In this document: piece after piece, positions 6,126 through 61,797 of the stretch | Position numbering within the stretch: the first letter of the stretch is position 1 | Layout: each line of letters opens with the position of its first letter | DNA from: Peptococcaceae bacterium | GTDB taxonomy: Bacteria > Bacillota > Desulfitobacteriia > Desulfitobacteriales > Syntrophobotulaceae | Assembly: GCA_012517475.1 (NCBI GenBank) | Contig: JAAYUV010000062.1 | Location: 1 to 64,000 of the forward strand | Direction of reading: 5' to 3' | Length of the DNA stretch: 64,000 nucleotides | Program-made: the position numbers and the translations under genes | Notes under the pieces: generated by a model | The model's input: only the letters and a program-made list of their open reading frames with translations | Told to the model about the DNA's origin: nothing | The model's database searches: none

Positions 6126-9100
6126 TCCTCTCTGGAAAAAAATTATGGTCATCGGGTCGGGTCCTATAATAATTGGCCAGGCAGCGGAGTTTGATTATGC
6201 CGGAACTCAAGCTTGTAAAGCCCTAAAAGAAATCGGGCTGGAAGTTGTACTTGTCAACAGCAATCCAGCCACCATTATGACCGATGTACAAATGGCGGAT
6301 AAAACCTATCTTGAGCCTCTCTTACCCGAAAGACTTGAGATGATCATGCAAAAAGAACGTCCCGATGCGTTGCTTCCTTCTTTGGGGGGGCAGACCGGAC
6401 TCAACCTGGCTATGGATTTAGAAAGAAAAGGAATTCTGGCTAAATACGGAATTCAAATGATTGGCTGTAATGCAGAGACCATCTATAAGGCAGAAGACCG
6501 GGAAGCTTTTAAGCAGATGATGTTGGAGATCAATGAACCTGTTGCCAAAAGCGCTATTGTGAGCAATCTGGAAGAGGGCGAGATTTTTGCCGAAGAGATC
6601 GGTTTTCCTGTAATCATCCGTCCGGCTTATACTTTGGGCGGAACCGGCGGCGGAATAGCCCATAATCAGAAAGAACTTGCAGAAATCCTGCACCGGGGTC
6701 TCCAGGCCAGCCCGATTACCCAGTGTTTACTGGAACAGAGCGTTGCCGGCTGGAAAGAGATCGAATATGAAGTCATGCGGGATGCCAGTGATAACTGCAT
6801 TACGGTCTGCAATATGGAAAATATTGACCCTGTGGGAATCCACACAGGGGATAGTATTGTCGTAGCCCCATCCCAAACCTTATCCGATGTAGAGTATCAA
6901 ATGCTGAGGGCTGCATCCCTGAAAATAATCAGAGCACTCAAGGTCAACGGGGGATGTAACGTTCAGTTCGCTCTGAACCCGGTGAGCCGGGAATATGTGG
7001 TAATCGAAGTAAACCCCAGGGTAAGCCGTTCCAGCGCCCTTGCTTCCAAGGCTACCGGCTATCCTATTGCCAAAATGGCAGCATTGCTTGCCGTTGGTTT
7101 TACCCTTCCCGAATTAACCAATCCGGTTACAGGGCATACCAGTGCTTGCTTTGAACCAGCTCTGGACTATGTTGTGGTAAAGTTTCCACGCTGGCCTTTT
7201 GATAAATTTCCTGCGGCCGATAATAAACTGGGAACTCAAATGAAGGCTACCGGCGAAGTGATGGCTCTGGACCGAAACCTGGAGGGAGCGCTTCTCAAAG
7301 CAATCCGTTCTTTGGAGATCGGAGCGGTGGGGCTTTCGGTGGCGGATGCCGGAAGCTGGACCGAAATGGAGATTGAAGATAAACTCCGGAATACGGATCA
7401 TGAACGCTTCTTTGCCATTGTTGAAGCATTCCGCAGGGAGTGGACCATAGCTGAAGTGGAGCTAAGCACAAAAATAGACCGTTTCTTTTTAACGAAGATC
7501 AAAGACCTTGTAGCGTTAGAGAAACGGCTGCAAAACGAGCCTCTCCTGGAGGAACTCCTGAGGGAGGCTAAGACCAAAGGGTTCTCGGATTTGGCTATTG
7601 CCAAACTAACCCGAAAACCGGAAGCGGAGATCAGAAAAACCAGAATGCAGGAAGGAATTCTGCCTGTTTATAAAATGGTAGATACCTGTGCAGCGGAATT
7701 TGTTTCAGCTACTCCCTATTATTATTCTACGTATGAACTTGAGGATGAAGTGGAAGTAAAAGACGGTCCGAAGATTGTTGTTTTGGGGTCTGGTCCTATC
7801 CGGATCGGGCAAGGGATTGAATTCGATTACTGCTCCGTACATGCTCTCTGGGCATTGCAGAAGGCCGGTATCGAATCCATTATTATCAACAATAATCCGG
7901 AGACTGTTTCCACCGATTTCGATACCGGAGATAAATTGTATTTTGAACCGCTTACCACGGAAGATGTGCTTCATGTCGTTATGAAGGAAAAAGCGGACGG
8001 GGTCCTTGTTCAATTTGGAGGACAGACAGCGATTAATCTGGCTGAGCCCCTGAGTAAAGCAGGGGTGAGAATATTCGGGACATCCTTTGATGCCATAGAC
8101 ATTGCCGAGGACCGCGAAAGGTTTGCCGCAGTGCTCAATGAATTAGGGATACTTCAGTCCGAGGGAAGAGCAGCCACCACTGTTTCTGCCGCCAGGGAGA
8201 TTGCGGAAGACCTTGGTTTCCCTGTGCTTGTCCGTCCATCCTATGTGATTGGCGGCCGGGCCATGCAGGTAGTACACAACCTCCGGGAGCTTGAGGCCTA
8301 TTTGCGGCAAGCCATCTATCTTTCCCCGGAACATCCTATTCTTGTGGATAAATACCTTGAAGGCAAGGAAGTAGAAGTCGATGCCATTTCCGACGGGGAG
8401 ACAACTGTTATTCCGGGGATTATGGAACATATCGAAAGAGCGGGTGTTCACTCCGGAGACAGTTTGGCCGTTTATCCCACGCAAAGCCTTACCCTGAATG
8501 AAATCAAACAGATTGAAAATATCACTTGCAGAATTGCAAAAAGGATGGGTATTCAGGGTTTAATCAATATTCAATTTGTGGTTGTCAACAGTTGGGTCTA
8601 TGTGCTGGAAGTAAACCCCCGGGCCAGCCGGACGGTTCCCATCCTTTCCAAGGTAACGGGAATTCCTATGGTAAATCTCGCGGTTCAGGTTGCACTGGGG
8701 AAAAAACTTACGGATTTGGGTTATACAAACGGGCTTATTCCGGAAGTGCCGTATGTTGTTGTCAAGGCTCCTGTGTTCTCTTTTGAAAAACTCACGAAGG
8801 TCGAAACTTCCCTTGGCCCTGAAATGAAATCTACGGGGGAAGTCCTGGGCATGGATACCTGTTTTGCGTATGCGCTGGCCAAGGCTTTTGCCGGGTCACA
8901 AATCAACCTGCCTGAAGCAGGTACTGTTTTGGTTTCTGTGGGGGAAAAAGAGCTGCCTGAGGCCATGACCATAACCCGGGAATTTTTTAAGCTCGGATTT
9001 AAGATCAAGGCTACCGGGGATTCCTGTAAAGCATTGTCGCTCTGCGGAGTGGATGCGGAGGAAGTAGATGAAGCAAGCGATGCTTTAAAAGATGCGATCC

Positions 9101-47459: not shown

Positions 47460-48227
47460 ACTGCCATCTTCCTCATATTATGTGCTATGCAATGCAAACC
47501 CCACTCTAATTTGACCTTTTCTAAACTTCCTTGTGGAAGGTGTTGTATTTTACATAATGCCTGAGTTCTTTATCTTGTAGATATTCATAGTTCTCTTCGC
47601 TACCATAACCGGCATCAGCAATAATATTCTTAGGCAGTTTTCCTGTTTTCCGTTTAACATGTTTTCGAGAATTTCCTGCTGATGTTCATATTTTTGCATC
47701 TCGGCAGGTAATCCTTAGTCAGTGTTTTCCTAACTTTTCTTAACTTCTTGGTTTCAGCATCTGGTTTCTCTTCTTCTGGTTTCTCTTCCTCTGGTTTCTT
47801 AGCGAGTCTTTCATCAATTTTTCTTACCGTTTCCTCAATGGCTCCTGAATCAATGGATAATATCTTTCATCCGTTCACCCCGGAAGCGATTGACCGCCAT
47901 AAAATCAGGCTGATTGCCACCGCAAAGCCACATGTACATGATGTTTTCACGTGCTGCTTTTGCAATTCTCCGGCATGAAAATATCTTATCTGTATAGGCG
48001 TAAATCAGGAGTTTTGTCATCATAACCGGGTGGAAACTAGAACGGCCGCCTCCCGAATATTTTGCAAACAGGGGTTCCAGGTTCATTTGGTCAATAGCTC
48101 TATTTACTACTCGTACCACATGATTTTCGGGAATCAGGCTGTCTATACTTAAGGGAAGCGTTAGTTGATCCTGTGTGTAGGGAATGAATACTTTTTTGGT
48201 ATGTACTTTTTGCCCTTTCTTTGACAT
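47460..48227 (-). pseudogene. IS1182-like transposase, broken
   Basis: The N-terminal part (48227 down to about 47850) reads KKGQKVHTKKVFIPYTQDQ and then SLIPENHVVRVVN and VNRFRGERMKDII, the IS1182 N-terminal domain. Further left on the minus strand, out of frame, NIIADAGYGSEENYEYL is a piece of the DDE catalytic domain. The part in between is largely missing or scrambled. A ribosome site AAGGGAGG precedes the N-terminal piece. It is not functional. Confidence 0.75.
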
Positions 48228-49331: not shown

Positions 49332-49755
49332 GTAATCAGTCCTCCTTTATATATATATTATCATGTTTTTTGATCATTGTATAAAATTCTTTTGGCTCAC
49401 TGCATAGCATTCTTTTCCCATATTTCTTCTTATGATATTTGTTATTTAAAAATTCTCATATTTTAGCTTTTTTTGCAAGTAAAAAATAAATATTTCCTGG
49501 TTATTTTATACTCCAATCAATCTGAGAACAACACAGGTGGGGACGATGTATACTTAATACTTATCTGAAATTAATACTATAATATAGAATTATGTAATAG
49601 TATATTTTATAATTGTATTAAGTTTCACGATCCTGAATAATTAAACCATTGATACTTTCCATGTTTTATTATAAAATATTCTATACATCTCAAAATGATT
49701 TATTATTATCAATTATTAGCCTTTTATGCAAGATAATTTTAAGGAAGTGATAGCT
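49332..49755. promoter_or_regulatory. Divergent A/T-rich control region
   Basis: 424 bases without a gene between the FCD regulator and the FAH gene. ATACTAT (49574-49580) and ATAGTAT (49597-49603) form an inverted repeat that could be the regulator's site. No clear hairpin terminator or RNA gene is seen. Confidence 0.4.
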
Positions 49756-50631
49756 ATGCGTCTGGCCTCAATAAAGTATGGGGGCGAAGTTGCGGCAATA
49801 ATAACAAAAGAAGGTTTATTACCGGTTCGCGCATTTAAAGATTCAGGGATGAATTTTGCAGAAAATTTGTTTTCACTGATTTCCACTGAACAATTAGAAG
49901 AATTGCAGGGCTGGTGGGAAGCCGAAAGCCGTGATAATTTTAGCTATTGGACACGATATATAGTACCATTTGATAAAGTAGTTTATGCGCCCTTATACCG
50001 GCACCCAAGAAAAATTTGGGGTATTGGGCTAAATTATATGGAACATGCCAAGGATCTTCATGAAAACACTCCCAAAACAGAACCGGCCAGCTTTATGAAG
50101 CCGGACACTTCTATTATCGGACACGGAGATTTCATTGAAATTCCTATTCAATCACAGCGTACAACGGCAGAAGCGGAATTAGGTGTAATCATAAAAAAAC
50201 GCTGTTATGGAATTGGCGAAAAAGAAGTAGGGGAATATATTGCCGGGTATACTACGATTATCGATATGACTGCTGAAGACATTTTGATGCAGAATCCGCG
50301 TTACCTTACCCGTTCCAAGAGCTTTAATACGTTTTTCAGTTTTGGTCCGCATTTTGTAACACCGGATGAAATAGATGATTTGTTCAATTTAAAAGTTGCT
50401 ACAGTCATTAACGGCAGAGTTCACCGCGAGAACATAATCGGAAATATGACTTTCAGACCCGAGACTTTAGTGGCTTTCCATTCTCAAGTCATGACGTTGC
50501 TGCCGGGCGATATCATTTCTACCGGTACACCCGGAGCAGTAGCCATCAGTGAAGGTGACGTTGTGGAATGTCACATCGAAGGATTTACTCCTTTGGTAAA
50601 TCCGGTTCGGGATCTGAAAATACAGAAATAG
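49756..50631 (+). CDS. Fumarylacetoacetate hydrolase family protein (second)
   Basis: 291 residues: an N-terminal small domain (about 1-75) and a FAH domain with WGIGLNYMEHAKDL, the metal-binding TTAEAELGVII, YTTIIDMTAED and DIISTGTPGAV. The start at 49756 follows AAGGAAGTGA. It is followed 30 bases on by an SDR gene. FAH-SDR pairs often act on 2,4-diketo or acylpyruvate intermediates of sugar-acid or aromatic breakdown; the substrate here is unknown. It is distinct from the 211-residue FAH protein at 10.8 kb. Confidence 0.82.
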   Translation: MRLASIKYGGEVAAIITKEGLLPVRAFKDSGMNFAENLFSLISTEQLEELQGWWEAESRDNFSYWTRYIVPFDKVVYAPLYRHPRKIWGIGLNYMEHAKDLHENTPKTEPASFMKPDTSIIGHGDFIEIPIQSQRTTAEAELGVIIKKRCYGIGEKEVGEYIAGYTTIIDMTAEDILMQNPRYLTRSKSFNTFFSFGPHFVTPDEIDDLFNLKVATVINGRVHRENIIGNMTFRPETLVAFHSQVMTLLPGDIISTGTPGAVAISEGDVVECHIEGFTPLVNPVRDLKIQK

Positions 50632-50661
50632 TTGATGTAGAATTCTAAGGAGGAAAATATT

Positions 50662-51447
50662 GTGGATCTAAATTTACAAGGGAAAGTTGCATTGGTGATT
50701 GCTTCCAGCCAGGGTCTTGGTAAAGCGATTGCTACGGAATTGGTCTTGGAAGGCGCCAACGTCATGATAACCAGTATTGACGGACCGATGCTAAAAATAG
50801 TTCAGGAGGAACTTCAGGCTTTGGGCAAAGGGAAAGTTGCCCAATATGAAGCAGATATCACCAAGGCTGAAGATATTCGTTCACTCGTTCAATTTACCAG
50901 GGATACCTTTGGTAAGATAGATATTCTGGTTAATAACGCAGGCGGCCCTCCGGGCGGAAGTTTCGATAACTTCAAGGATGAGGACTGGCAAAAGGCTTAT
51001 GAGCTGAATCTTCTCAGCTATATCCGAATTATCCGTGAAGTGCTCCCGGATCTTAAGGTTAGCGGCGGGCGTATTGTGAACATGACGTCCTCCTCTGTGA
51101 GACAACCTATTCCTAACCTGATTCTTTCCAACACCTTCAGGATGGGGGTTTTGGGGCTTTCTAAATCCCTCGCTGAAGAACTTGCTCCCTTTAACATTCT
51201 TGTCCATACCGTGGCGCCCGGTCGTATCGCTACGGACAGGGTTGCTTTTCTGGATAAATTGAAGGCGGAAAAAATGGGAATCACACCTGAAGAAGTTGCA
51301 GCGCAATCCCGTAAGACCATTCCCCTGGGCAGATATGGCGAACCGGAAGAGCTTGCCAAGGTAGTCGCATTTCTTGTTTCCGGTGCATGCACGTATATGA
51401 CAGGAAGTGTTATCCAAATTGATGGCGGGATGATCAAATCCGTATAA
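50662..51447 (+). CDS. Short-chain dehydrogenase-like protein lacking the usual Tyr-Lys pair
   Basis: 261 residues, starting at GTG behind AAGGAGG. The Rossmann fold is clear: SSQGLGKAIA (cofactor loop), ILVNNAGGPPGG (NNAG motif), VNMTSSS with the catalytic serine, and a C-terminal GSVIQIDGGM. Where classical members have YxxxK, this protein reads SNTFR, so the tyrosine and lysine appear replaced by Ser and Arg. A recognisable subgroup with VRQPIPNLILSN shares this. The reaction is therefore uncertain; annotation as a FabG-type reductase would be unsafe. Confidence 0.8.
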   Translation: MDLNLQGKVALVIASSQGLGKAIATELVLEGANVMITSIDGPMLKIVQEELQALGKGKVAQYEADITKAEDIRSLVQFTRDTFGKIDILVNNAGGPPGGSFDNFKDEDWQKAYELNLLSYIRIIREVLPDLKVSGGRIVNMTSSSVRQPIPNLILSNTFRMGVLGLSKSLAEELAPFNILVHTVAPGRIATDRVAFLDKLKAEKMGITPEEVAAQSRKTIPLGRYGEPEELAKVVAFLVSGACTYMTGSVIQIDGGMIKSV

Positions 51448-51553: not shown

Positions 51554-52267
51554 TCAACCGGAATTTGAGAAAGAGGAACTTGCAGATAATTTGCAGTAAT
51601 CTCCCCGGAAGTAAGTGATACCGAGCCCAATGGGTTTATTTTGGGTGTTAAATAGTTTTTGTTCGACTACTAATAGAGGGATTGTATTATATAGGGATAA
51701 ATGTTTGGCGACTTCCTCATCAGGCAATTCAGCCGAAATGGTCAACTCTTTTTTTATGGCGAATAAAGATGTGTATTTGGAAACCATATCGGGAAATGTT
51801 CCGTATTTTATCTCCTTTTCCACCACGGGCATCCCTTTATAATATATCAGGTATTTTTGGTCGAAGGCTACTTTCTCTCCATTACTATAAAAAAGTCTTT
51901 TAACAAGAATGATTTTTCGGTTGCTTGATAAATTCAAGCTGTTGATTAACTTGGCAGTAGGAAGGACAATATTTACCTCAATTAATTTCGTTTGATCTAT
52001 ACTATTAATCAAATTAGACATTTCATTATAATACAACGTGTATTTTTCAGAATCAGGTTCGTTCACAAAGCTTCCCTTACCCGGAATAGATGTAATATAT
52101 CCCTCGCTGATTAATATAGCCAGTCCTTTCCTGACAGTCATCCGGCTTACTTTGTAGGTTTCACATAAAGCATTCTCAGAAGGAATTGCATCACCGGGTT
52201 TTAGAGCAGCGCTCTTGATTTTGTCTTTAATATCTTCAACAATTTGCAAATATATGGGTAGCTCCAT
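51554..52267 (-). CDS. GntR-family regulator (HutC/UTRA type)
   Basis: 237 residues. The winged helix (about 8-70, with PSENALCETYKVSRMTVRKGL) is followed by a UTRA ligand-binding domain ending in FNTQNKPIGLGITYFRGDYCKL. HutC-type regulators recognise GT-N-TA-N-AC sites. Exactly such a motif, GTATATAC, occurs at the metF, amidohydrolase and cooS promoters downstream, which makes this protein the best candidate for their repressor. It is transcribed away from metF. Its ligand is unknown. Confidence 0.88.
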   Translation of the reverse strand: MELPIYLQIVEDIKDKIKSAALKPGDAIPSENALCETYKVSRMTVRKGLAILISEGYITSIPGKGSFVNEPDSEKYTLYYNEMSNLINSIDQTKLIEVNIVLPTAKLINSLNLSSNRKIILVKRLFYSNGEKVAFDQKYLIYYKGMPVVEKEIKYGTFPDMVSKYTSLFAIKKELTISAELPDEEVAKHLSLYNTIPLLVVEQKLFNTQNKPIGLGITYFRGDYCKLSASSSFSNSG

Positions 52268-52483: not shown

Positions 52484-52528
52484 AATATATCAATTTAGAC
52501 TTATACCCAAAGAATTAAGGTGATAATG

Positions 52529-54088
52529 ATGAAAAAAACATTCCGGCAACTTATCCAAGAGAAAGAATTTATTATTACCTGGGAGTTGGTGCCCGGGCGT
52601 GGATCTTGGGAAGATACTCATCGTAACGTACTGAAGCTTGCTGATCAGGCAGCTATTGGAAAAAAGGTTCATGCTGTAAGCCTGACGGAAAATCCCGGAG
52701 GAAAAACTGGTATACAGCCGGAAGTCATTGGCAGGGAGATTGCGGAATTAGGTATGGAATCAATTATTCATATCACCTGCAAAGATAAGAACCGCAGTCA
52801 ATTGGAAAGTCACCTGTATGCTTTGGAACGGTTAAAATTAAATAATTTGCTTGTAATTAGCGGTGATTATGCCACTGAAAGTATCCTTGGCTGCCCGAAA
52901 CCTGTTTTTGATATTGATTCTACGCACCTCTTAAAGTTAATTACTGAAATGAACAGCGGAATAGAATTTTCTACGCCCCGGGGAAAAACCCGAATCAAAC
53001 CCAGCAATTTTTTCCCCGGCGCGGCAGTATCTCCGTTTAAAGCAACCGAAGCAGAGCAAATGCTTCAGTATTCTAAGTTAAAAAAGAAAATAGAAAACGG
53101 TGCCCAATATATTATTACCCAAATAGGCTACGATGCCAGGAAATATCATGAACTTCTTTTATATGTAAACACCATGAAGTGGAAGGTACCTCTTATAGGA
53201 AATATATTTATGGTTGACTATCCTGCGGCCAGGATCATGAACAAAAATAATATTCCCGGATGTGTTGTAACAGATAAGTTGTTGGCTCAGTTGGAACAAG
53301 AAAACCAATCCTGCGACAAGGGTATCGCCGTAAGGATGGAAAGAGCCGCAAAGCTTTTTGCGGTGCTTAAAGGTATGGGCTATCAGGGGGTACATCTTGG
53401 AGGGCTGAACGTTACGTATGAACAAATTGAATATGTGATATCCAGAGGGGAAGAATTGCTTCCGAACTGGAAGGAGTATGTTTCCGAATTTGATTATCCT
53501 CAGGACCAGGGATTTTATATTTTTGAGAAAAATAATGAAACCGGCTTAAACCAGGAAAAGATGTCTGATTCGCCGGAAAATGCACAAAAGAAAACGGATA
53601 TAAATTATAAAATTTCCAGGGGCTTTCATAAGCTGTTTTTTGTTCCCGGTAAAAAATTCTTTCCGGTTATGCAGAAACTGTCTTCCCGACTTGAAGGCAG
53701 AAAACTGGAAAAATACTTTCACGGGATAGAACGTATTTCCAAGGAGTTTATGTATAACTGTCAGGACTGTGGGGATTGTGCCCTTACCGATGTAGCATAT
53801 GTATGTCCAATGGGTGATTGTCCTAAAAACCAGCGGAACGGGCCTTGCGAAGGAAGTTACTACGGCTGGTGCGAGGTATACCCGGGAAAAAGGCAGTGCG
53901 TATGGGTAAAGGCTTATCAACGCCTGAAAAATTATCATGAAGAAAAGCAATTAAATTCCTATCCGGTAAGTCCTTATAATTGGAAACTCCAGCATACATC
54001 TTCATGGATAAATTACTATACGGGTAAGGATCATTCGGCGGAACGGCTGGGGATTCAACGGGGAAATACTAAAGAACAATCGAAATGA
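52529..54088 (+). CDS. metF: Methylenetetrahydrofolate reductase fused to an MTHFR C-terminal (MetV-like) domain
   Basis: 519 residues. The N-terminal part (about 1-310) is the MetF TIM barrel that interconverts methylene- and methyl-tetrahydrofolate (FIITWELVPGRG, ITQIGYDARKYHELL, GGLNVTYEQIEYVI). The C-terminal part carries cysteines C411, C414, C417 (NCQDCGDC) followed by CPMGDCPKNQRNGPC, the MetV/MTHFR_C zinc-binding pattern that in acetogens is a separate subunit. The start follows TTAAGGTGA; ATG 52526 is also possible. In the methyl-oxidising direction it would take methyl groups from the corrinoid system next door. Confidence 0.88.
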   Translation: MKKTFRQLIQEKEFIITWELVPGRGSWEDTHRNVLKLADQAAIGKKVHAVSLTENPGGKTGIQPEVIGREIAELGMESIIHITCKDKNRSQLESHLYALERLKLNNLLVISGDYATESILGCPKPVFDIDSTHLLKLITEMNSGIEFSTPRGKTRIKPSNFFPGAAVSPFKATEAEQMLQYSKLKKKIENGAQYIITQIGYDARKYHELLLYVNTMKWKVPLIGNIFMVDYPAARIMNKNNIPGCVVTDKLLAQLEQENQSCDKGIAVRMERAAKLFAVLKGMGYQGVHLGGLNVTYEQIEYVISRGEELLPNWKEYVSEFDYPQDQGFYIFEKNNETGLNQEKMSDSPENAQKKTDINYKISRGFHKLFFVPGKKFFPVMQKLSSRLEGRKLEKYFHGIERISKEFMYNCQDCGDCALTDVAYVCPMGDCPKNQRNGPCEGSYYGWCEVYPGKRQCVWVKAYQRLKNYHEEKQLNSYPVSPYNWKLQHTSSWINYYTGKDHSAERLGIQRGNTKEQSK

Positions 54089-54216: not shown

Positions 54217-54249
54217 TCAGCAAAGTCTTTAATTTGCTGATTTTTTTTT
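54217..54249 (+). terminator. Terminator after metF
   Basis: TCAGCAAA (54217-54224) and TTTGCTGA (54233-54240) form the stem, followed by nine T residues. It abuts the sigma-54 promoter that follows, cleanly separating the two transcripts. Confidence 0.85.
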
Positions 54250-54264
54250 GGCATGAGAATTGCA
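54248..54264 (+). promoter_or_regulatory. Sigma-54 promoter of the methyltransferase operon
   Basis: TTGGCATGAGAATTGCA has the -24 GG and -12 GC doublets of the RpoN consensus (TGGCAC-N5-TTGCW) with correct spacing. It implies an enhancer-binding activator acting from upstream; none is encoded in the window. The 240-base leader that follows (54265-54503) contains TTGTAATT..AATTACAA (54420-54444) and no gene. Confidence 0.75.
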
Positions 54265-54503
54265 TTACTTTATATAGATAAAATAAACAATTTTACGGGA
54301 ACAAAGTGAAAGGAGAAATATCCGGGAACATAAGCAAATCAGAGAAATCGTGTGATATTTCAACGCAGCTTAGCCGGAAAAGAGGTGGAGATAAAGAATT
54401 CATACCAAAGCCATAAAATTTGTAATTGTAATTTGGAATTACAAGGGCGGAACAATTCAATGAAGATTTTAGAACGATAAGAAGGAGGAGAAACCAATAA
54501 TTA

Positions 54504-55313
54504 ATGATTATTATAGGCGAAAAAATTAATGGCTCCATTCCATCAATGGGAAAAGCCATTCGGGAAAAGGATGAAGCATATATTCGTGATTGCGCTAAAA
54601 AGCAGGCCGATGCAGGAGCTACCTATCTTGACGTTTGTGCATCGGTACCGGAAGAGTTTGAAGTTGAAACATTGAAATGGTTAATCGGCTTAGTTCAGGA
54701 AGTTACCGATACACCTATTTGTGTCGATAGTCCAAGCCCGTATTCCATTGTAGCAGCATTACCCTTCTGCAAAAAAACAGGTTTGGTTAATTCCGTTTCT
54801 ATGGAAGGTGAAAAAATAGATGTAATATTCCCGGTTATCGCTGATACGAAATGGGAATGTGTAGCGCTCCTATGCGACGACAAAGGGGTCCCTCATTCGG
54901 TGGAAAAACGCTTAGAAGTGTTTGAAAATATTATGAAAAAGGCAAAAGAGTACAATATTGCTCCATCCCGCTTGTATATAGATCCATTGGTGGAAACTTT
55001 ATCTACCAATGAAGCCACCCTAACTATGTTTGCAGAATGTGCAAGAGAAATAAGAAAACGGTATCCAACCATTCATGTAACAAGCGGCTTAAGTAATATT
55101 TCATTTGGATTGCCTGCTCGGAAGCTTATCAATCAAGCATTTATGGTTTTGGCCATGAATGCCGGTATGGACAGCGCGATCGTTGACCCCACAAACAGAG
55201 ACCTGTTAGGCTTGATTTATGCCACAAAAGCTTTATTGGAACAAGATGAATATTGTTTAGAATATATCTCGGCATTTAGGGAAGGGATCATTGGACCTTT
55301 GCCAAAAGCTTAA
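54504..55313 (+). CDS. Tetrahydrofolate:corrinoid-protein methyltransferase (MtvA/AcsE-like)
   Basis: 269-residue pterin-binding TIM barrel of the dihydropteroate-synthase-like superfamily. It is the methyltransferase II of three-component systems, moving the methyl group from the methylated corrinoid protein to tetrahydrofolate. Seen: IIIGEKINGSIPSM (start of barrel), GATYLDVCAS, NSVSMEG and VTSGLSNISFGLP. GGAGGAG lies somewhat far (13 bases) from the ATG. It heads an operon with a corrinoid protein and a UroD-like methyltransferase, the composition of known vanillate or phenyl methyl ether O-demethylases. Confidence 0.88.
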   Translation: MIIIGEKINGSIPSMGKAIREKDEAYIRDCAKKQADAGATYLDVCASVPEEFEVETLKWLIGLVQEVTDTPICVDSPSPYSIVAALPFCKKTGLVNSVSMEGEKIDVIFPVIADTKWECVALLCDDKGVPHSVEKRLEVFENIMKKAKEYNIAPSRLYIDPLVETLSTNEATLTMFAECAREIRKRYPTIHVTSGLSNISFGLPARKLINQAFMVLAMNAGMDSAIVDPTNRDLLGLIYATKALLEQDEYCLEYISAFREGIIGPLPKA

Positions 55314-55378
55314 TTTACGCTCAAATTATTTAATGAGAAAGATAACAAGTACTAAATATAAAAGTAGGAGGTTTGACC

Positions 55379-56017
55379 ATGTCTAAAATTCAAGAAATCC
55401 AACAAGCAGTTGAATTCGGTAAGAAAAAAATTATCAAAGGTCTTATAGAGGAAGCATTAGCGGAAGGTTGCCAGGCAATCGATATTTTAAACCAAGGTAT
55501 GATTGAAGCAATGAGTATTGTGGGTGAAAAATTTAAAGCCGGCGAGATTTATGTTCCTGAGATGCTGGTAGCAGCCCGTGCCATGAAAGAAGGCGTTGAA
55601 ATCATAAAACCGCATTTATTAAGCGACCAGAATACTGTCGCCGGTAAATTCATTATCGGTACGGTTGAAGGTGACTTGCACGATATCGGTAAAAACCTTG
55701 TTGCGATGATGATTGAAAGTGCAGGATTTACGGTCATCGATTTAGGCGTAGACGTTGCACCGGAAAAATTTATCGAAGCAATTAAAGCGAATCCGGATTG
55801 TCGCCTTGTAGGTCTTTCCGCATTATTAACAACAACCATGCCAGCTTTAAATAAAGCAGTAGCTGCAATTATTGAAGCCGGTTTAAAGAGCCAAGTTAAG
55901 ATAATGGTCGGTGGCGCCCCTATTTCTCAAGAATTTGCAGATAAGATCGGCGCTGATGGTTTTGCAGCGGATGCCGCATCGGCCGCATCTATAGCAAAAG
56001 AATTAGTTGCTTCTTAA
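55379..56017 (+). CDS. Corrinoid (cobalamin-binding) methyl carrier protein
   Basis: 212 residues from the ATG behind TAGGAGG. An N-terminal helical cap (about 1-88) is followed by a B12-binding Rossmann domain with the cobalt-ligand histidine H101 in GDLHDIGKN and the loops GLSALLTTTM and VGGAPIS. It shuttles methyl groups between the substrate methyltransferase and methyltransferase II. Repeated reduction to Co(I) needs an activator ATPase (RamA type), which is not in the window. Confidence 0.92.
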   Translation: MSKIQEIQQAVEFGKKKIIKGLIEEALAEGCQAIDILNQGMIEAMSIVGEKFKAGEIYVPEMLVAARAMKEGVEIIKPHLLSDQNTVAGKFIIGTVEGDLHDIGKNLVAMMIESAGFTVIDLGVDVAPEKFIEAIKANPDCRLVGLSALLTTTMPALNKAVAAIIEAGLKSQVKIMVGGAPISQEFADKIGADGFAADAASAASIAKELVAS

Positions 56018-56045
56018 CTATTAAAATAATCGGGAGGCAGATAAG

Positions 56046-57194
56046 ATGAACAGTCGCGAAAGATTATTGTGTGCTTTGAATCATAAAGAACCGGACCGTA
56101 TCCCGCTCGATCTAGGAGCAGGGTGTTCATGTAAATTTACAAAGTATTTTTATGTCAAGCTTTTAGATTATTTTGGACTTAAAGAAGATATCGTTATGAA
56201 TCACATTCCTTACCAGCTTGTCTCTGCATCGGACAAAGTATTGGATCTTTTAAAATGTGATGTGCGTTCCGCCACACTCCATCCCATCCCCCAGGGCGAG
56301 AATCCTTACGCTAAGAAATGGGAAGACGAAAATAGCTATTATTATACCAATAATTGGGGAACTCAGTATAGAATGCCCAAGCATCAGGGTCTGTATTACG
56401 ACTTAGTCGGAGGTGTTTTAGAAGATGCCGAAGACGAGGAAGACGACAAGAAGTTTATATGGCCTATACCCGAAAAATTCCCTAAAGCGGATCGCAAGCA
56501 GCTGGAAGACTACCGCGCCGCAGGATTTGCCACCACGATTTCAGAGCAGTTTGGTAATGGATTTCTTCAACAAGGACCGCTGATGTGGGGCTTTGAAAAC
56601 TGGTTTGCAATGCTGGTGACCGAGCCGGAACGCTGTACTCCGTTTATGGATAAATTACTTGAAAAGAAAATAGAATACTATGATAACATTTTTGATACGT
56701 ACGGCGGACTTGTTGATGTATGCTGTGAAGCGGATGATTTTGGCACCCAGCGCGGAACATTTATTTCTCCAAAACTCATTAAAGAGATGATACTTCCTTA
56801 TCATAAGAAACTAAATGACTATATCAAGTCCAAGGGAGCCAGCCATATGACGCTGCACACCTGCGGCTCTGTTGAAGCGATAATACCGGATATCATTGAA
56901 GCAGGTTTCGATTGTCTGAATCCGGTACAAATATCTGCGGCGAATATGAGTCCCGAACACTTGAAGAAAACATACGGCAACGACATCGTATTCTGGGGCG
57001 GCGGGATCAATACGCAGGCTACTCTCCCCAATGGGACGCCTGAACAGGTTAGGGAAGAAACCAAGAGAAACATTGATATTTTCGCTAAAGATGGCGGATT
57101 TGTATTCTCTACTGTCCACAATGTACAGGATGATGTTCCAATTGAGAATTTTATTGCTATGTGGGAAACTTTCCAAGATAACTGTAAGTACTGA
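56046..57194 (+). CDS. UroD-family substrate:corrinoid methyltransferase
   Basis: 382 residues of the uroporphyrinogen-decarboxylase-like methyltransferase family (MtaA/MtbA/MtvB relatives), not haem synthesis. The zinc motif is H271-x-C273 in LHTCGSV, with a further candidate ligand late in the protein. An acidic insertion (EDAEDEEDD) sits near 125. It should demethylate a substrate such as a methoxylated aromatic or other methyl donor and pass the methyl to the corrinoid protein. The exact substrate cannot be read from the sequence. Confidence 0.87.
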   Translation: MNSRERLLCALNHKEPDRIPLDLGAGCSCKFTKYFYVKLLDYFGLKEDIVMNHIPYQLVSASDKVLDLLKCDVRSATLHPIPQGENPYAKKWEDENSYYYTNNWGTQYRMPKHQGLYYDLVGGVLEDAEDEEDDKKFIWPIPEKFPKADRKQLEDYRAAGFATTISEQFGNGFLQQGPLMWGFENWFAMLVTEPERCTPFMDKLLEKKIEYYDNIFDTYGGLVDVCCEADDFGTQRGTFISPKLIKEMILPYHKKLNDYIKSKGASHMTLHTCGSVEAIIPDIIEAGFDCLNPVQISAANMSPEHLKKTYGNDIVFWGGGINTQATLPNGTPEQVREETKRNIDIFAKDGGFVFSTVHNVQDDVPIENFIAMWETFQDNCKY

Positions 57195-57200
57195 TGATAA

Positions 57201-57256
57201 GTGGGTGAACTGTTCAAAACCGGGGGAAGCAACGGCTTCCTCGGTTTTAAACCCAC
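57201..57256 (+). terminator. Nested hairpin after the methyltransferase operon
   Basis: Inner stem AAAACCGGGGGAAGC (57216-57230) with GGCTTCCTCGGTTTT (57234-57248), enclosed by GTGGGT (57201-57206) and ACCCAC (57251-57256). A TTTT lies inside the 3' arm. It is probably a partial terminator that reduces expression of the DUF2284 gene. Confidence 0.55.
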
Positions 57257-57301
57257 CTAATGGCTTTTTCTGAAGGCATGAGAAGCAAAGGGGCTATGGA
57301 G

Positions 57302-57853
57302 ATGGAAACAATAGTAAGCAATCTGGTCAAGGATGCCCTTGCATTGAATACATCACGTGCAACAATCGTTGAAGTAGCAAAAATACAGTTTAATGAAGAC
57401 TTAAGAAAGCTATGTGAACAGAATTCATGCGGATCTTACAATAAGAATTGGATGTGTCCTCCGGCAGTGGGTTCCATCAACGATTTGCGTGAGCGATTCA
57501 CGGAATTTAAACAAGGCCTGTTGTTCCAGACTGTACATCTCTTAGAAGATTCTCTTGATTGGGAAGGGATGCAAGAAGGAAAGAATAAGCATACCGAGAT
57601 ATTCCGGGAGATCCTTGAGATGATGGAGAATAACTACAACTTCAATAAAATTCTTCCATTTAATGCAGGCCCCTGTACTTATTGTCCCAAATGCTTCTAT
57701 CTTGTTGGAGAAAAGTGCCGGTTTCCCCAGAAAGCAGTATCCTCTGTTGAAGCCAACGGAATTGACGTAATGGCCTTGGTCAAAGAATGCGGGATTCCTT
57801 ATAATAATGGTAAAAATACAGTTTCTTATGTATCACTGATACTGTTTAAATAG
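57302..57853 (+). CDS. DUF2284 metal-binding protein
   Basis: 183 residues from the ATG behind AAAGGGG; other in-frame ATGs upstream (57260, 57278, 57296) have worse sites. Cysteines cluster as CGSYNKNWMCPP (about residues 43-54) and CTYCPKCFYLVGEKCRFP in the second half, a ferredoxin-like pattern suggesting one or two metal or Fe-S sites. DUF2284 proteins are found beside corrinoid methyltransferases; a role in electron supply or corrinoid reactivation is a guess. Confidence 0.8.
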   Translation: METIVSNLVKDALALNTSRATIVEVAKIQFNEDLRKLCEQNSCGSYNKNWMCPPAVGSINDLRERFTEFKQGLLFQTVHLLEDSLDWEGMQEGKNKHTEIFREILEMMENNYNFNKILPFNAGPCTYCPKCFYLVGEKCRFPQKAVSSVEANGIDVMALVKECGIPYNNGKNTVSYVSLILFK

Positions 57854-57855
57854 AA

Positions 57856-58080
57856 ATGTTTTCAGTTCTAAGGAGATATGATTATGGTACTTCTTCCAGG
57901 GAGATTAATGGGACATTAGCGGAAATAAAAAAGGAAATCACTGAAGTATTTGCGCTTATTTCAAACTTCGGTAATATAAGCCAGGCGCAGGCTGCCCATA
58001 CTCAAGAGTTTGCGTCAGGAAGTCAACGATTAATAGAACTGGCGGAAAGACTTACTGTTATCTCTCAATCCTTGCTGTGA
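57856..58080 (+). pseudogene. Remnant of a chemoreceptor-like coiled-coil protein
   Basis: 74-codon frame. From about residue 17 it reads INGTLAEIKKEITEVFALISNFGNISQAQAAHTQEFA in part, resembling the C-terminal coiled coil of methyl-accepting signalling proteins. The first 15 residues look like unrelated sequence, and the best ribosome site (AAGGAGATATG) points to a different frame that stops after 11 codons. It is therefore probably a truncated gene, though a small coiled-coil protein is possible. Confidence 0.4.
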
Positions 58081-58085
58081 CCATA

Positions 58086-58147
58086 TTGACTGAAAAAATG
58101 AAAAATGCTATGGTAATAATTGAAACAAGTATATACAGGGGTATACC
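58086..58147 (+). promoter_or_regulatory. Amidohydrolase promoter with GTATATAC operator
   Basis: TTGACT (58086-58091) and TATGGT (58109-58114), 17-base spacer, followed by AGTATATACAGG (58128-58139) and GGTATACC (58140-58147). The operator lies just after the expected start point. Confidence 0.55.
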
Positions 58148-58155
58148 GATCAAAG

Positions 58156-59091
58156 ATGTTAATTGATGCTCATATTCATATATCCCTGAATGGCAGGGAT
58201 TTTGCAGCATCCCGTAAGATGCATCAGACAAGTAACAACGACATCATCAAAAATCAATTAAATGAATACAAAAAGTTAGGAATATACCTGCTGCGGGATG
58301 GGGGCGATAATTTAAACATATCTTTCCGGGCCAGAGAGATTGCCCGTGAAGAGGGGATGATCCTGAGAACCCCGGTTTATGCTATTTACAAACGGGGAAC
58401 TTACGGGAGCTTTCTGGGTAAACCAATTACGGATCTTGATGAGTTTGATCAGGAATTCAAAAATTTACTTCGTTTTCAGCCTGATCACTTAAAAATTATA
58501 TTAACGGGTTTGGCAGATTTCAATTCCTTCGGAAAGATTGATGGGATAGCTTTTCATGATCAACAGCTTTACCATATGGTACAAAGCGCAAAAGACAAAG
58601 ATTTACCGGTAATGGTTCATGCCAACTCTGCAAAAGCAGTTCAAATGGCCGTCAGGGCAGGTGCAGATACAATTGAACATGGATATTACCTTGGTGAAGA
58701 AGAATTATATCAAATGGCTGAACAAGGAACAATCTGGATACCGACATTAGCGCCAATCGGAAACCTAATTGCTTATAACGATTCCAGACATCAAAGTCAA
58801 ATGGATAATATCTTAAAGATATATGAGTCCCAAACAGAAAAAGTAATAAGAGCAAATCAAATTGGCGTAAAAATAGCAGTCGGCAGTGATGCCGGTTCCC
58901 GGTGTGTGAATCACGGTCAGGGTTTTTGGGATGAAGTTTTTTATCTTACTCAAGCGGGACTAAAAAAAGAAGAAGTGTTAAAGGACTCATTTGTTAACGG
59001 GATTCAGGCCTTAGGCCTTAGGAAAGATGAATTGGATTGTTGTTTCAAGGACGTTAATAATGTAATAAATCCGGGTTTAGAGGGAATGTAA
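58156..59091 (+). CDS. Amidohydrolase-family protein
   Basis: 311-residue metal-dependent TIM-barrel hydrolase of the imidazolonepropionase/prolidase-like group. Metal ligands: DAHIHI at the N-terminus, VMVHANS, TIEHGYYL and the late aspartate in VGSDAGSR. The start at 58156 is preferred; an earlier in-frame TTG (58120) would put the operator inside the coding region. It ends one base into the next gene (ATGTAATG), so the two are translationally coupled. It might hydrolyse an amide or cyclic amide of a methylated substrate; this is inference. Confidence 0.82.
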   Translation: MLIDAHIHISLNGRDFAASRKMHQTSNNDIIKNQLNEYKKLGIYLLRDGGDNLNISFRAREIAREEGMILRTPVYAIYKRGTYGSFLGKPITDLDEFDQEFKNLLRFQPDHLKIILTGLADFNSFGKIDGIAFHDQQLYHMVQSAKDKDLPVMVHANSAKAVQMAVRAGADTIEHGYYLGEEELYQMAEQGTIWIPTLAPIGNLIAYNDSRHQSQMDNILKIYESQTEKVIRANQIGVKIAVGSDAGSRCVNHGQGFWDEVFYLTQAGLKKEEVLKDSFVNGIQALGLRKDELDCCFKDVNNVINPGLEGM

Positions 59092-59756
59092 TGAAAACAG
59101 CCATTATCTGCTGCGAGAACCTAAAATATGAATTAATCAAAACCTTAAAAAAATCAGGAAGTTCTATTCCTGTGATCTGGATTTCATCCGATTATCACAT
59201 TAATTCCGACAGGTTAAGAGAAAAGCTGCAACAAGAAATTGACCAGCTTCAAGATTTTGAAAAGATTTTGTTAGGTTTTGGGTGTTGCGGGAATTCCGTT
59301 ATTGGCTTAACAGCAACAACGGCGGATTTGGTTATCCCCAAAGCGCACGATTGCATTGAAATTTTATTAAGCCGGAGGAATAAAAAGTTTAAACGCAGGG
59401 CGAGTACCTATTTCTTGAGTAAGGGATGGCTTCAGAGTGACAAAGGGATTATCCAGGAACATAAACGTTTAGTGGAACGATATGGGGAAGTAAAAGCAAA
59501 AAATATATTAAAAATTATGCTGAACCAATACTATTCTTTGATGTTTATTGATTCCGGCGTATCGGATAAGGCTGAACTTGATCGACTGCTGAAGACTTCA
59601 GAACAGTTTGCAGCGGCGGCTAATTTGGAACTGATGGTAGAAAAAGGTGGTTATTGGCTGCTGAAAGCACTGGTTCAGGGATTATTCGAAAAAGACTTTA
59701 TCATAATAAAAAAAGGAGAGACCGTACCAATGACAGCTTTTATGTCCTCCGGTTAA
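59091..59756 (+). CDS. DUF1638 protein
   Basis: 221 residues. Features: IICCENLKYEL at the start, LLGFGCCGNSVIGL with paired cysteines, and VIPKAHDCIEILLSR. These match DUF1638, a family of unknown function that occurs beside corrinoid methyltransferase genes in methanogens and anaerobic bacteria. The conserved Cys and His residues suggest metal or corrinoid contact. It overlaps the amidohydrolase stop codon, so the two probably work together. Confidence 0.78.
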   Translation: MKTAIICCENLKYELIKTLKKSGSSIPVIWISSDYHINSDRLREKLQQEIDQLQDFEKILLGFGCCGNSVIGLTATTADLVIPKAHDCIEILLSRRNKKFKRRASTYFLSKGWLQSDKGIIQEHKRLVERYGEVKAKNILKIMLNQYYSLMFIDSGVSDKAELDRLLKTSEQFAAAANLELMVEKGGYWLLKALVQGLFEKDFIIIKKGETVPMTAFMSSG

Positions 59757-59847: not shown

Positions 59848-61797
59848 ATGGATGAAAACTTAAGATCTGTAGATTTAGCGGCGCAAGAACTTTTTCAAAA
59901 AGCAAGCGAGGATAATATCGAAACGCTCTGGGATAGAAAAGCTGCTTTGAAAACGCAATGTGGTTTTGGGGAACAGGGAGTTTGCTGCCGAATTTGTAAT
60001 ATGGGACCATGCAGGGTTAGTCCGGTCCCGGGAAAAGGCGTTCAGCGCGGAATCTGCGGCGCGACTGCAGATGTTATTGCTTCCAGGCATTTTGCCAGAA
60101 TGGTTGCGGGAGGGGCATCTGCCCACTCTGACCATGGCAGGAATATCGCCCATATTTTGCATATGGCCGGAGAGAATGGAAATTATAAGGTTCGCGATGA
60201 AAAGAAACTATTGGAAGTAGCAGGTAGGTGGGGTATTTCTACTGAAGGAAAGAGCATCGATTCTCTGGCGCATGAAGTTGCCGAGGCAGCTTTAAATGAA
60301 TTTGGAAAACCTTTTGGAAGTATGACTTTACCGCCGAGCGTGCCTGAACAAAGAAAAAAAGTATGGGAAGAAAATAAGATTGTTCCCAGAGCCATAGACA
60401 GAGAAGTTGTCTCGATCATGCATGCAACCACCATGGGTTGTACCGCCGATGCCGACAGCATGATCAATTTAGCCATGAGGACATCCATGACGGACGGTTG
60501 GGGCGGGTCATATATCGGCACGGAGTTTAGCGATATTTTATTCGGTACACCGGTTCCGCGTGAAATCGAAGCCAATCTGGGCGTTATCCAAAAAAATATG
60601 GTCAATATTGTCTTACATGGACATGAACCCAGTCTTTCCGAAATGGTAGTACTGGCATCCGAAGATCCTGAAATAAAAACTTTAGCGACTAAAGCCGGTG
60701 CGGAAGGCATTAACCTGGTGGGTATATGCTGTACCGGAAATGAAGTCACCATGAGACATGGCGTAAAGATTGCCGGCAATTTTCACCAGCAGGAACTTGC
60801 AGTTTTAACCGGGGCGATCGAAGCCGTAATTGTTGATGTCCAATGTATATTCCCTGCCTTAGCCAATTTAACCCGGTGTTTTCATACGAAATTTATAACG
60901 ACTTCCCCTTTGGCAAAGATAACTGGGGCTACGCATATAGAATTTAATGAAGAACATGCTTATGAGAGTGCGAAAAGTATAATCAGGGAAGCAGTTGAGA
61001 ACTTCAAAAACAGGAAACAGGATAGAGTTCAAATTCCTCAATATAAATCTCAAGGTACTGTGGGTTATAGCAATCGTGCGATTATTGGGCAGTTGGACAG
61101 AGTAGTAAATTCCTATACGGATAAGCCGGGAACATTTAAGCCGCTCGCCGATTGTTTGGTATCCGGAGTTTTAAGGGGAGCTGTCGGGGTTGTAGGTTGC
61201 AATAATCCTAAAGTAAAGAGTGACTACGGGCACCTTGAGATTATAAAGAGAATGATAGCGAATGATGTCATTGTCGTCGTTACGGGCTGTGCCGCTCAGG
61301 CAGCCGCCAAAGCAGGACTCTTAAGCAAAGATGCGGCAACGAAGTACTGTGGAGAAGGTCTGCGTAAGGTATGTGAGCTCGCGGATATTCCGCCTGTTCT
61401 CCATATGGGTTCCTGTGTGGATATCAGCCGTATTCTGGAACTCGTTGGAGAAGTAGCCAAAATACTTCATTTGGATATGAGTGAATTGCCTGTTATTGGA
61501 GCGGCTCCCGAATGGATGTCGGAAAAAGCGGTAGCTATTGGAACCTATGTTGTAAGCTCAGGTCTTGATGCTTTTCTCGGTGTAGTGCCTCCGGTCACGG
61601 GTAGTCTCGAAGTCACAGATATTCTGACCAATAGAATTGAAAACTGGGTTGGCGGTAAGTTCTATTTTGAGACTGACCCGGTTGTCGCTGCTGAGAAAAT
61701 GTTGGCCAGGATCGAAGAAAAGCGAGCGAAGGTAGAAGAGATTGCCTTACAACGGATGAACATTACAAAGTACGATGATCTAAGCCCGGGCTTTTAA
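59848..61797 (+). CDS. cooS: Anaerobic CO dehydrogenase catalytic subunit
   Basis: 649-residue Ni-Fe CO dehydrogenase interconverting CO and CO2. All cluster ligands are present: C38, C46, C47, C50 and C55 in the N-terminal Fe-S region, and the C-cluster set H259, C295, C333, C451, C481, C523 aligning with CODH-II of Carboxydothermus. The ATG follows TTTGGAGGAGG. It leads cooS-cooC-ATPase-acsD, which places it in the acetyl-CoA synthase branch (AcsA) rather than as a stand-alone CO oxidiser. The acsB gene is beyond the window. Confidence 0.96.
   Translation: MDENLRSVDLAAQELFQKASEDNIETLWDRKAALKTQCGFGEQGVCCRICNMGPCRVSPVPGKGVQRGICGATADVIASRHFARMVAGGASAHSDHGRNIAHILHMAGENGNYKVRDEKKLLEVAGRWGISTEGKSIDSLAHEVAEAALNEFGKPFGSMTLPPSVPEQRKKVWEENKIVPRAIDREVVSIMHATTMGCTADADSMINLAMRTSMTDGWGGSYIGTEFSDILFGTPVPREIEANLGVIQKNMVNIVLHGHEPSLSEMVVLASEDPEIKTLATKAGAEGINLVGICCTGNEVTMRHGVKIAGNFHQQELAVLTGAIEAVIVDVQCIFPALANLTRCFHTKFITTSPLAKITGATHIEFNEEHAYESAKSIIREAVENFKNRKQDRVQIPQYKSQGTVGYSNRAIIGQLDRVVNSYTDKPGTFKPLADCLVSGVLRGAVGVVGCNNPKVKSDYGHLEIIKRMIANDVIVVVTGCAAQAAAKAGLLSKDAATKYCGEGLRKVCELADIPPVLHMGSCVDISRILELVGEVAKILHLDMSELPVIGAAPEWMSEKAVAIGTYVVSSGLDAFLGVVPPVTGSLEVTDILTNRIENWVGGKFYFETDPVVAAEKMLARIEEKRAKVEEIALQRMNITKYDDLSPGF

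Follow-up and report, generated by a model that had tools for sequence, protein, structure and literature searches.

Do six consecutive genes of a Peptococcaceae bacterium—encoding a pterin methyltransferase, a corrinoid protein, a UroD-superfamily methyltransferase, a DUF2284 protein, an amidohydrolase and a DUF1638 protein—form one demethylation module, as an initial annotation had proposed, or do they belong to different systems? They lie on contig JAAYUV010000062.1 (assembly GCA_012517475.1), of whose 134 kb the first 64 kb are the window, in a region that constitutes a Wood-Ljungdahl locus. All six genes are present, as open reading frames with Pfam or NCBIfam profile scores far above the cut-offs (Table 1); gene names were assigned by homology, those of the carbon monoxide dehydrogenase/acetyl-CoA synthase (CODH/ACS) genes from sequence and synteny. 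We conclude that they probably represent two adjacent units: a substrate-induced three-component methyltransferase (Unit 1), and beside it an amidohydrolase–DUF1638 pair (Unit 2) that belongs to the Wood-Ljungdahl cluster. The activities, substrate and regulation of both units are those that we infer from sequence.

The three-component methyltransferase

The first three genes had been read as a three-component demethylase, and their domains, their closest structures and their recurrence as a unit in other genera bear this out. The corrinoid protein has B12 cap and binding domains and a DxHxxG motif. The UroD-like protein is the candidate methyltransferase I (MT I); in a low-confidence model (pLDDT 60) its fold resembles UROD and a Methanosarcina methyltransferase, whereas neither phmmer nor a profile built on the UroD family found a match in the PDB. 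The zinc motif of VdmB/OdmB-type MT I, D/E-X27-29-C-X39-C, is not matched in it, an HxC at residues 271–273 being the only conserved part. The closest solved structures to the pterin methyltransferase (methyltransferase II, MT II) are 4o0q, 4o1e and 4o1f (337 bits), attributed to the methyltransferase component of an O-demethylase from Desulfitobacterium hafniense. Two of these, 4O1E and 4O1F, have served as MT II templates (PMC13222342).

Orthologues of the UroD protein, 53–90% identical overall, are found in Desulfosporosinus, Desulfofustis, Sporomusa and others, including Desulfosporosinus spp., Desulfofustis glycolicus DSM 9705 (86%), a Gracilibacteraceae metagenome-assembled genome (85%) and Sporomusa sp. 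KB1 (69%); 7 of 60 sampled relatives have one at 80–90% identity. The neighbourhoods of other UroD relatives were examined in 19 stretches, with some genomes covered twice, and the unit that recurs is PAS/sigma-54 activator – major facilitator superfamily (MFS) transporter – pterin methyltransferase – corrinoid protein – UroD, with DUF2284 as an optional member present in three genomes (the window's, G031 and G053). None of the 19 stretches contains an amidohydrolase orthologue. At the Desulfofustis and Gracilibacteraceae loci, genes for binding proteins of tripartite ATP-independent periplasmic (TRAP) carriers follow in place of the MFS gene; TRAP carriers typically take carboxylates. The activator and transporter of the window's genome are located about 18 kb downstream of Unit 1, and the same contig encodes a RACo-domain protein (L001:16568-18466) and has an acsV-like gene (L001:8995-10944). 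The transporter's best family is aromatic acid/H+ symport (270–289 bits, below that model's cut-off of 419); it has matches to organic cation carriers as well (TIGR00898 and SLC22 structures).

The context of the UroD units, the aromatic-acid type of the transporter and the structural match of MT II together point to a carboxylic acid as substrate, one that is methylated and probably a methoxylated aromatic. The likeliest role of Unit 1 is demethylation of such a methoxylated aromatic acid, with transfer of the methyl group to tetrahydrofolate and onward into the adjacent Wood-Ljungdahl pathway.

Apparent sigma-54 control

The only perfect sigma-54 element in the window, TGGCATGAGAATTGCA, begins on the base right after the terminator at 54217–54248, and the MFS gene is preceded by another, at contig position 74586. 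Of the 14 module loci scanned, the window among them, 11 have a perfect element, located 76–517 bp upstream of the gene that opens the UroD-containing operon. The 280 kb of module loci hold 18 perfect sites, against 0.45 expected by a first-order Markov model; control DNA of the same length (280 kb), taken from related genomes, has two, and 13 amidohydrolase/Wood-Ljungdahl loci have none. On this sequence evidence the demethylase operon, the carrier and the activator look like one regulon, despite the roughly 18 kb of Wood-Ljungdahl genes between them. The scan of the window revealed no perfect site before the amidohydrolase gene; a near match at 58191 was rejected, as it has one mismatch and lies within the amidohydrolase coding sequence.

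In the mechanism that we propose, the PAS-domain sigma-54 activator would sense the substrate and activate two promoters, the one at 54249 and that of the aromatic-acid MFS transporter. The methylated substrate, in all likelihood a methoxylated aromatic carboxylate, would be bound by the UroD-like protein and held in place for attack by the corrinoid protein's Co(I). From the methyl-Co(III) so formed, the pterin methyltransferase would pass the methyl group on to tetrahydrofolate, and RACo-type proteins of the same contig would reactivate oxidised Co(II). The resulting methyltetrahydrofolate would enter the Wood-Ljungdahl cluster, to be either oxidised via the methylenetetrahydrofolate reductase (MTHFR) fusion or condensed by CODH/ACS.

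A second PAS/sigma-54 activator is encoded on G000:C92 (L178:5967-9697). Behind it come a perfect sigma-54 site at 8152 and a gene for a DUF2193 protein (829 bits); this set is a probable further sigma-54 controlled catabolic unit.

The amidohydrolase and the Wood-Ljungdahl cluster

Five genomes of the same family share the order MTHFR fusion – formate transporter – Fhs – FchA – FolD – pterin methyltransferase – amidohydrolase – (DUF1638 in G021) – CODH – cooC – cooC – acsD – acsC – acsE, with acsB next wherever the fetched stretch reaches. The window holds both ends of this order, and the demethylase unit occupies the place of its middle; Fhs of this genome is on contig C10 and the counterpart pterin methyltransferase on C92. 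Such a Wood-Ljungdahl-type pterin methyltransferase adjoins the amidohydrolase in nearly all genomes examined except the window's. The other 13 amidohydrolase loci, from G021 and 12 other genomes, are all in C1-folate/CODH clusters, and in one (G021) DUF1638 directly follows the amidohydrolase, the pair being part of the Wood-Ljungdahl cluster of a genome that lacks this UroD orthologue. Beyond the five same-family genomes, eight of these orthologues (47–56% identity) came from 398 genomes of the phylum, and each has genes for a pterin methyltransferase, Fhs, CODH or RACo nearby. Within the order, a UroD orthologue is present in 8 of 61 genomes and an amidohydrolase orthologue in 6 of 74; they co-occur in the window's genome only, and a single co-occurrence is about what is expected by chance. 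The initial annotation had suggested that the pair might extend the demethylase into a C-N-hydrolysing demethylation module, and these neighbourhoods, like the 19 UroD stretches, argue against that suggestion.

The metal ligands of the amidohydrolase (H6, H8, K113, H155, H175 and D245; the HxH, K, H, H, D set) are invariant in 11 orthologues, and it is therefore probably an active hydrolase; an AlphaFold model from the single sequence (pLDDT 37) was not usable. It would be a metal-dependent hydrolase acting on a substrate of the C1 cluster, plausibly in folate or C1 repair or salvage. A more tentative proposal, which we consider somewhat doubtful, is that the amidohydrolase, the Wood-Ljungdahl-type pterin methyltransferase and DUF1638 make up an uncharacterised accessory of the methyl branch, for example for hydrolysis of a dead-end folate or corrinoid adduct, borrowed by demethylase modules that land in the cluster.

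DUF1638

The window's DUF1638 gene is the only copy found in this genome. In the tree its product groups as sister to that of G021, whose gene likewise lies between the amidohydrolase and CODH genes (support 89/97), and the copies near UroD modules are placed elsewhere. Using phmmer matches of at least 60 bits, a gene for a pterin methyltransferase, corrinoid protein, UroD or RACo was found within 5 kb in 29 of 36 DUF1638 loci of the order, compared with 0 of 20 control loci, a small set. These counts favour the view that DUF1638 functions in corrinoid methyltransferase systems generally. Methionine synthesis in Phaeobacter inhibens requires a DUF1638 gene together with a RamA-like protein, which is a genetic link to B12 reactivation (PMC5764234), and in Ruegeria pomeroyi DUF1638 is more abundant on N-osmolytes (PMC12478193). 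The most likely function of DUF1638 is to help keep corrinoid proteins active. The initial annotation had placed the genes after the first three outside described O-demethylases, which is too strong for DUF1638, given its neighbours and the Phaeobacter genetics; even so, finding DUF1638 at this locus is not enough to establish a new module.

No convincing solved structural relative of DUF1638 was found. In Desulfofustis glycolicus (L052:14425-17289) a 954-amino-acid frame close to a UroD module combines DUF1638 with domains of the hydantoinase A type, which may hint at an ATPase partner.

Alternative explanations

That all six genes serve one substrate requiring both demethylation and C-N hydrolysis is the least probable reading. 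The genes are adjacent and on the same strand, and the amidohydrolase and DUF1638 genes do overlap, as first annotated, by one shared base (TAATG); however, the hairpin at 57212–57252 and the remnant at 57853–58080 set the first three genes apart from the amidohydrolase, before which there is no perfect sigma-54 site, and the amidohydrolase is missing from every other UroD stretch examined, yet keeps its place in the Wood-Ljungdahl cluster where a genome has no UroD orthologue. It is also very unlikely that the pterin methyltransferase–corrinoid pair serves mainly the Wood-Ljungdahl pathway or methionine synthesis, with UroD incidental, even though Wood-Ljungdahl genes surround the cluster and related amidohydrolase loci contain a pterin methyltransferase. 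A dedicated AcsE is encoded downstream (503 bits to NF040758), the match of the Wood-Ljungdahl-type pterin methyltransferase is on C92, and a MetH-like long frame (1139 amino acids) is on C98; moreover, the window's MT II scores 394–528 bits against UroD-module copies and only about 300 against the Wood-Ljungdahl-type copy.

The alternative that carries most weight, although we consider it less likely than a methoxylated aromatic acid, is another methyl donor, such as a haloalkane, a methylated amine, a thioether or an aliphatic methoxy acid. The UroD superfamily includes haloalkane methyltransferases (PMC13222342), one of which, CdmB, resembles O-demethylases yet refuses methoxyaromatics, and the organic cation carrier matches of the transporter also speak for this reading. 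Haloalkanes would need no carrier, though, and aromatic-acid symporters are the transporter's best family; the carboxylate preference of TRAP carriers and the presumed O-demethylase origin of the structures closest to MT II also favour a methoxylated aromatic acid.

Several further points weigh against a clean division into two units. Read-through from the UroD gene into the amidohydrolase gene is possible. DUF1638 is also near UroD genes at L043, L037, L048, L049 and L052, with perfect sigma-54 sites directly upstream of it at L043:7934 and L037 (11995, reverse-complemented), which suggests co-regulation with demethylation in those other genomes. DUF1638 may thus serve the demethylase, though the window copy belongs to the Wood-Ljungdahl cluster.

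Other features of the locus

The initial annotation did not include the terminator, the sigma-54 promoter, the hairpin or the flanking Wood-Ljungdahl genes listed in Table 1. The DUF2284 gene probably starts at 57302, because its orthologues are 182–184 amino acids long, and the open frame that follows is likely a rearrangement scar. Downstream of cooS are two cooC-like genes, acsD, acsC, acsE, acsB and acsV, and beyond these DUF3786, a minus-strand corrinoid gene, the PAS/sigma-54 activator, the MFS transporter and a RACo-type protein. A transposase-like fragment (47850–48227, minus strand) lies about 4 kb upstream of the locus, and a fumarylacetoacetate-hydrolase family gene paired with a short-chain dehydrogenase gene (49726–51447) is possibly a separate catabolic unit.

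Table 1. Coordinates of units, genes and signals in the window.
Feature	Position	Strand	Remarks
Unit 1	54249–57194, perhaps to 57853	+	Three-component corrinoid methyltransferase
Unit 2	58156–59756	+	Amidohydrolase–DUF1638 pair; probable Wood-Ljungdahl cluster member
GntR/UTRA regulator	51554–52267	-	Divergent from MTHFR fusion; homologues occur in corrinoid/DUF1638 clusters
MTHFR + DUF5981 fusion (MetV/MetF type)	52520–54088	+	Wood-Ljungdahl methyl branch
Intrinsic terminator after MTHFR-fusion gene	54217–54248	+	8-bp stem and T run; z -3.2
Sigma-54 promoter TGGCATGAGAATTGCA	54249–54264	+	0 mismatches to TGGCAYRNNNNTTGCW
Pterin (methyltetrahydrofolate:corrinoid) methyltransferase, MT II	54504–55313	+	Pterin_bind; PRK07535, 367 bits
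Corrinoid protein	55379–56017	+	B12-binding_2 and B12-binding; DxHxxG motif
UroD-superfamily methyltransferase, MT I candidate	56046–57194	+	URO-D (PF01208), 84.6 bits
Terminator/attenuator-like hairpin 3' of UroD gene	57212–57252	+	-19.9 kcal/mol; z -2.1
DUF2284 protein	57302–57853 (open reading frame 57260–57853)	+	169 bits; 8 Cys in longer frame
Start-less open frame, chemoreceptor C-terminus-like remnant	57853–58080	+	Likeness not confirmed by search
Amidohydrolase-family protein	58156–59091 (alternative start 58120)	+	Amidohydro_1, 56 bits
DUF1638 protein (PF07796)	59091–59756	+	134 bits; curated cut-off 27
CODH catalytic subunit (CooS/AcsA)	59848–61797	+	Matches CODHs encoded in syntenic clusters at up to 1218 bits

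Comparison with known systems

Unit 1 is a known kind of system with a sigma-54 layer for which no description turned up in the O-demethylase literature searched, where we found no paper joining the two. It was compared with the corrinoid O-demethylases MtvABC of Moorella, Odm/Vdm of Acetobacterium, Dhaf_4610-4612 and Dhaf_0720-0722 of Desulfitobacterium and MtoABCD of Methermicoccus. With these it shares three soluble components—a UroD-superfamily MT I, a small corrinoid protein and a pterin MT II—and a RACo/RamA-type activase, a likeness at the level of architecture; an MFS carrier adjoins the Mto genes (PMC8630106), as a carrier accompanies the window module. Its own features are the dedicated PAS/sigma-54 activator and sigma-54 promoters, and the position of carrier and activator beyond the Wood-Ljungdahl cluster. 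The Cdm chloromethane system of Acetobacterium dehalogenans has the same three-part architecture with a UroD-superfamily MT I (PMC13222342) and is likewise similar in architecture, but is haloalkane-specific and needs no carboxylate transporter.

The locus presents a methyl-stripping module coupled to carbon fixation: operon on one side, sensor and carrier on the other, it flanks the CODH/ACS genes and seems to have sigma-54 control of its own. Two questions split off from this ordinary demethylase: the substrate of the Wood-Ljungdahl amidohydrolase and the part of DUF1638 in corrinoid enzymes. The closest parallel for the former is the Thermosediminibacter oceani amidohydrolase Toce_0798, listed in a figure legend (PMC3584212, Fig. 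9) among the genes of compared Wood-Ljungdahl clusters; as far as that gene listing goes, an amidohydrolase and a folP-like gene accompany fhs and cooS genes there, whereas in the window the demethylase module stands in for the upstream folate genes. For the latter it is PGA1_c13340 of Phaeobacter inhibens (PMC5764234), of the same Pfam family, which adjoins corrinoid genes and is linked to B12 reactivation, whereas the window copy is in a Wood-Ljungdahl cluster.

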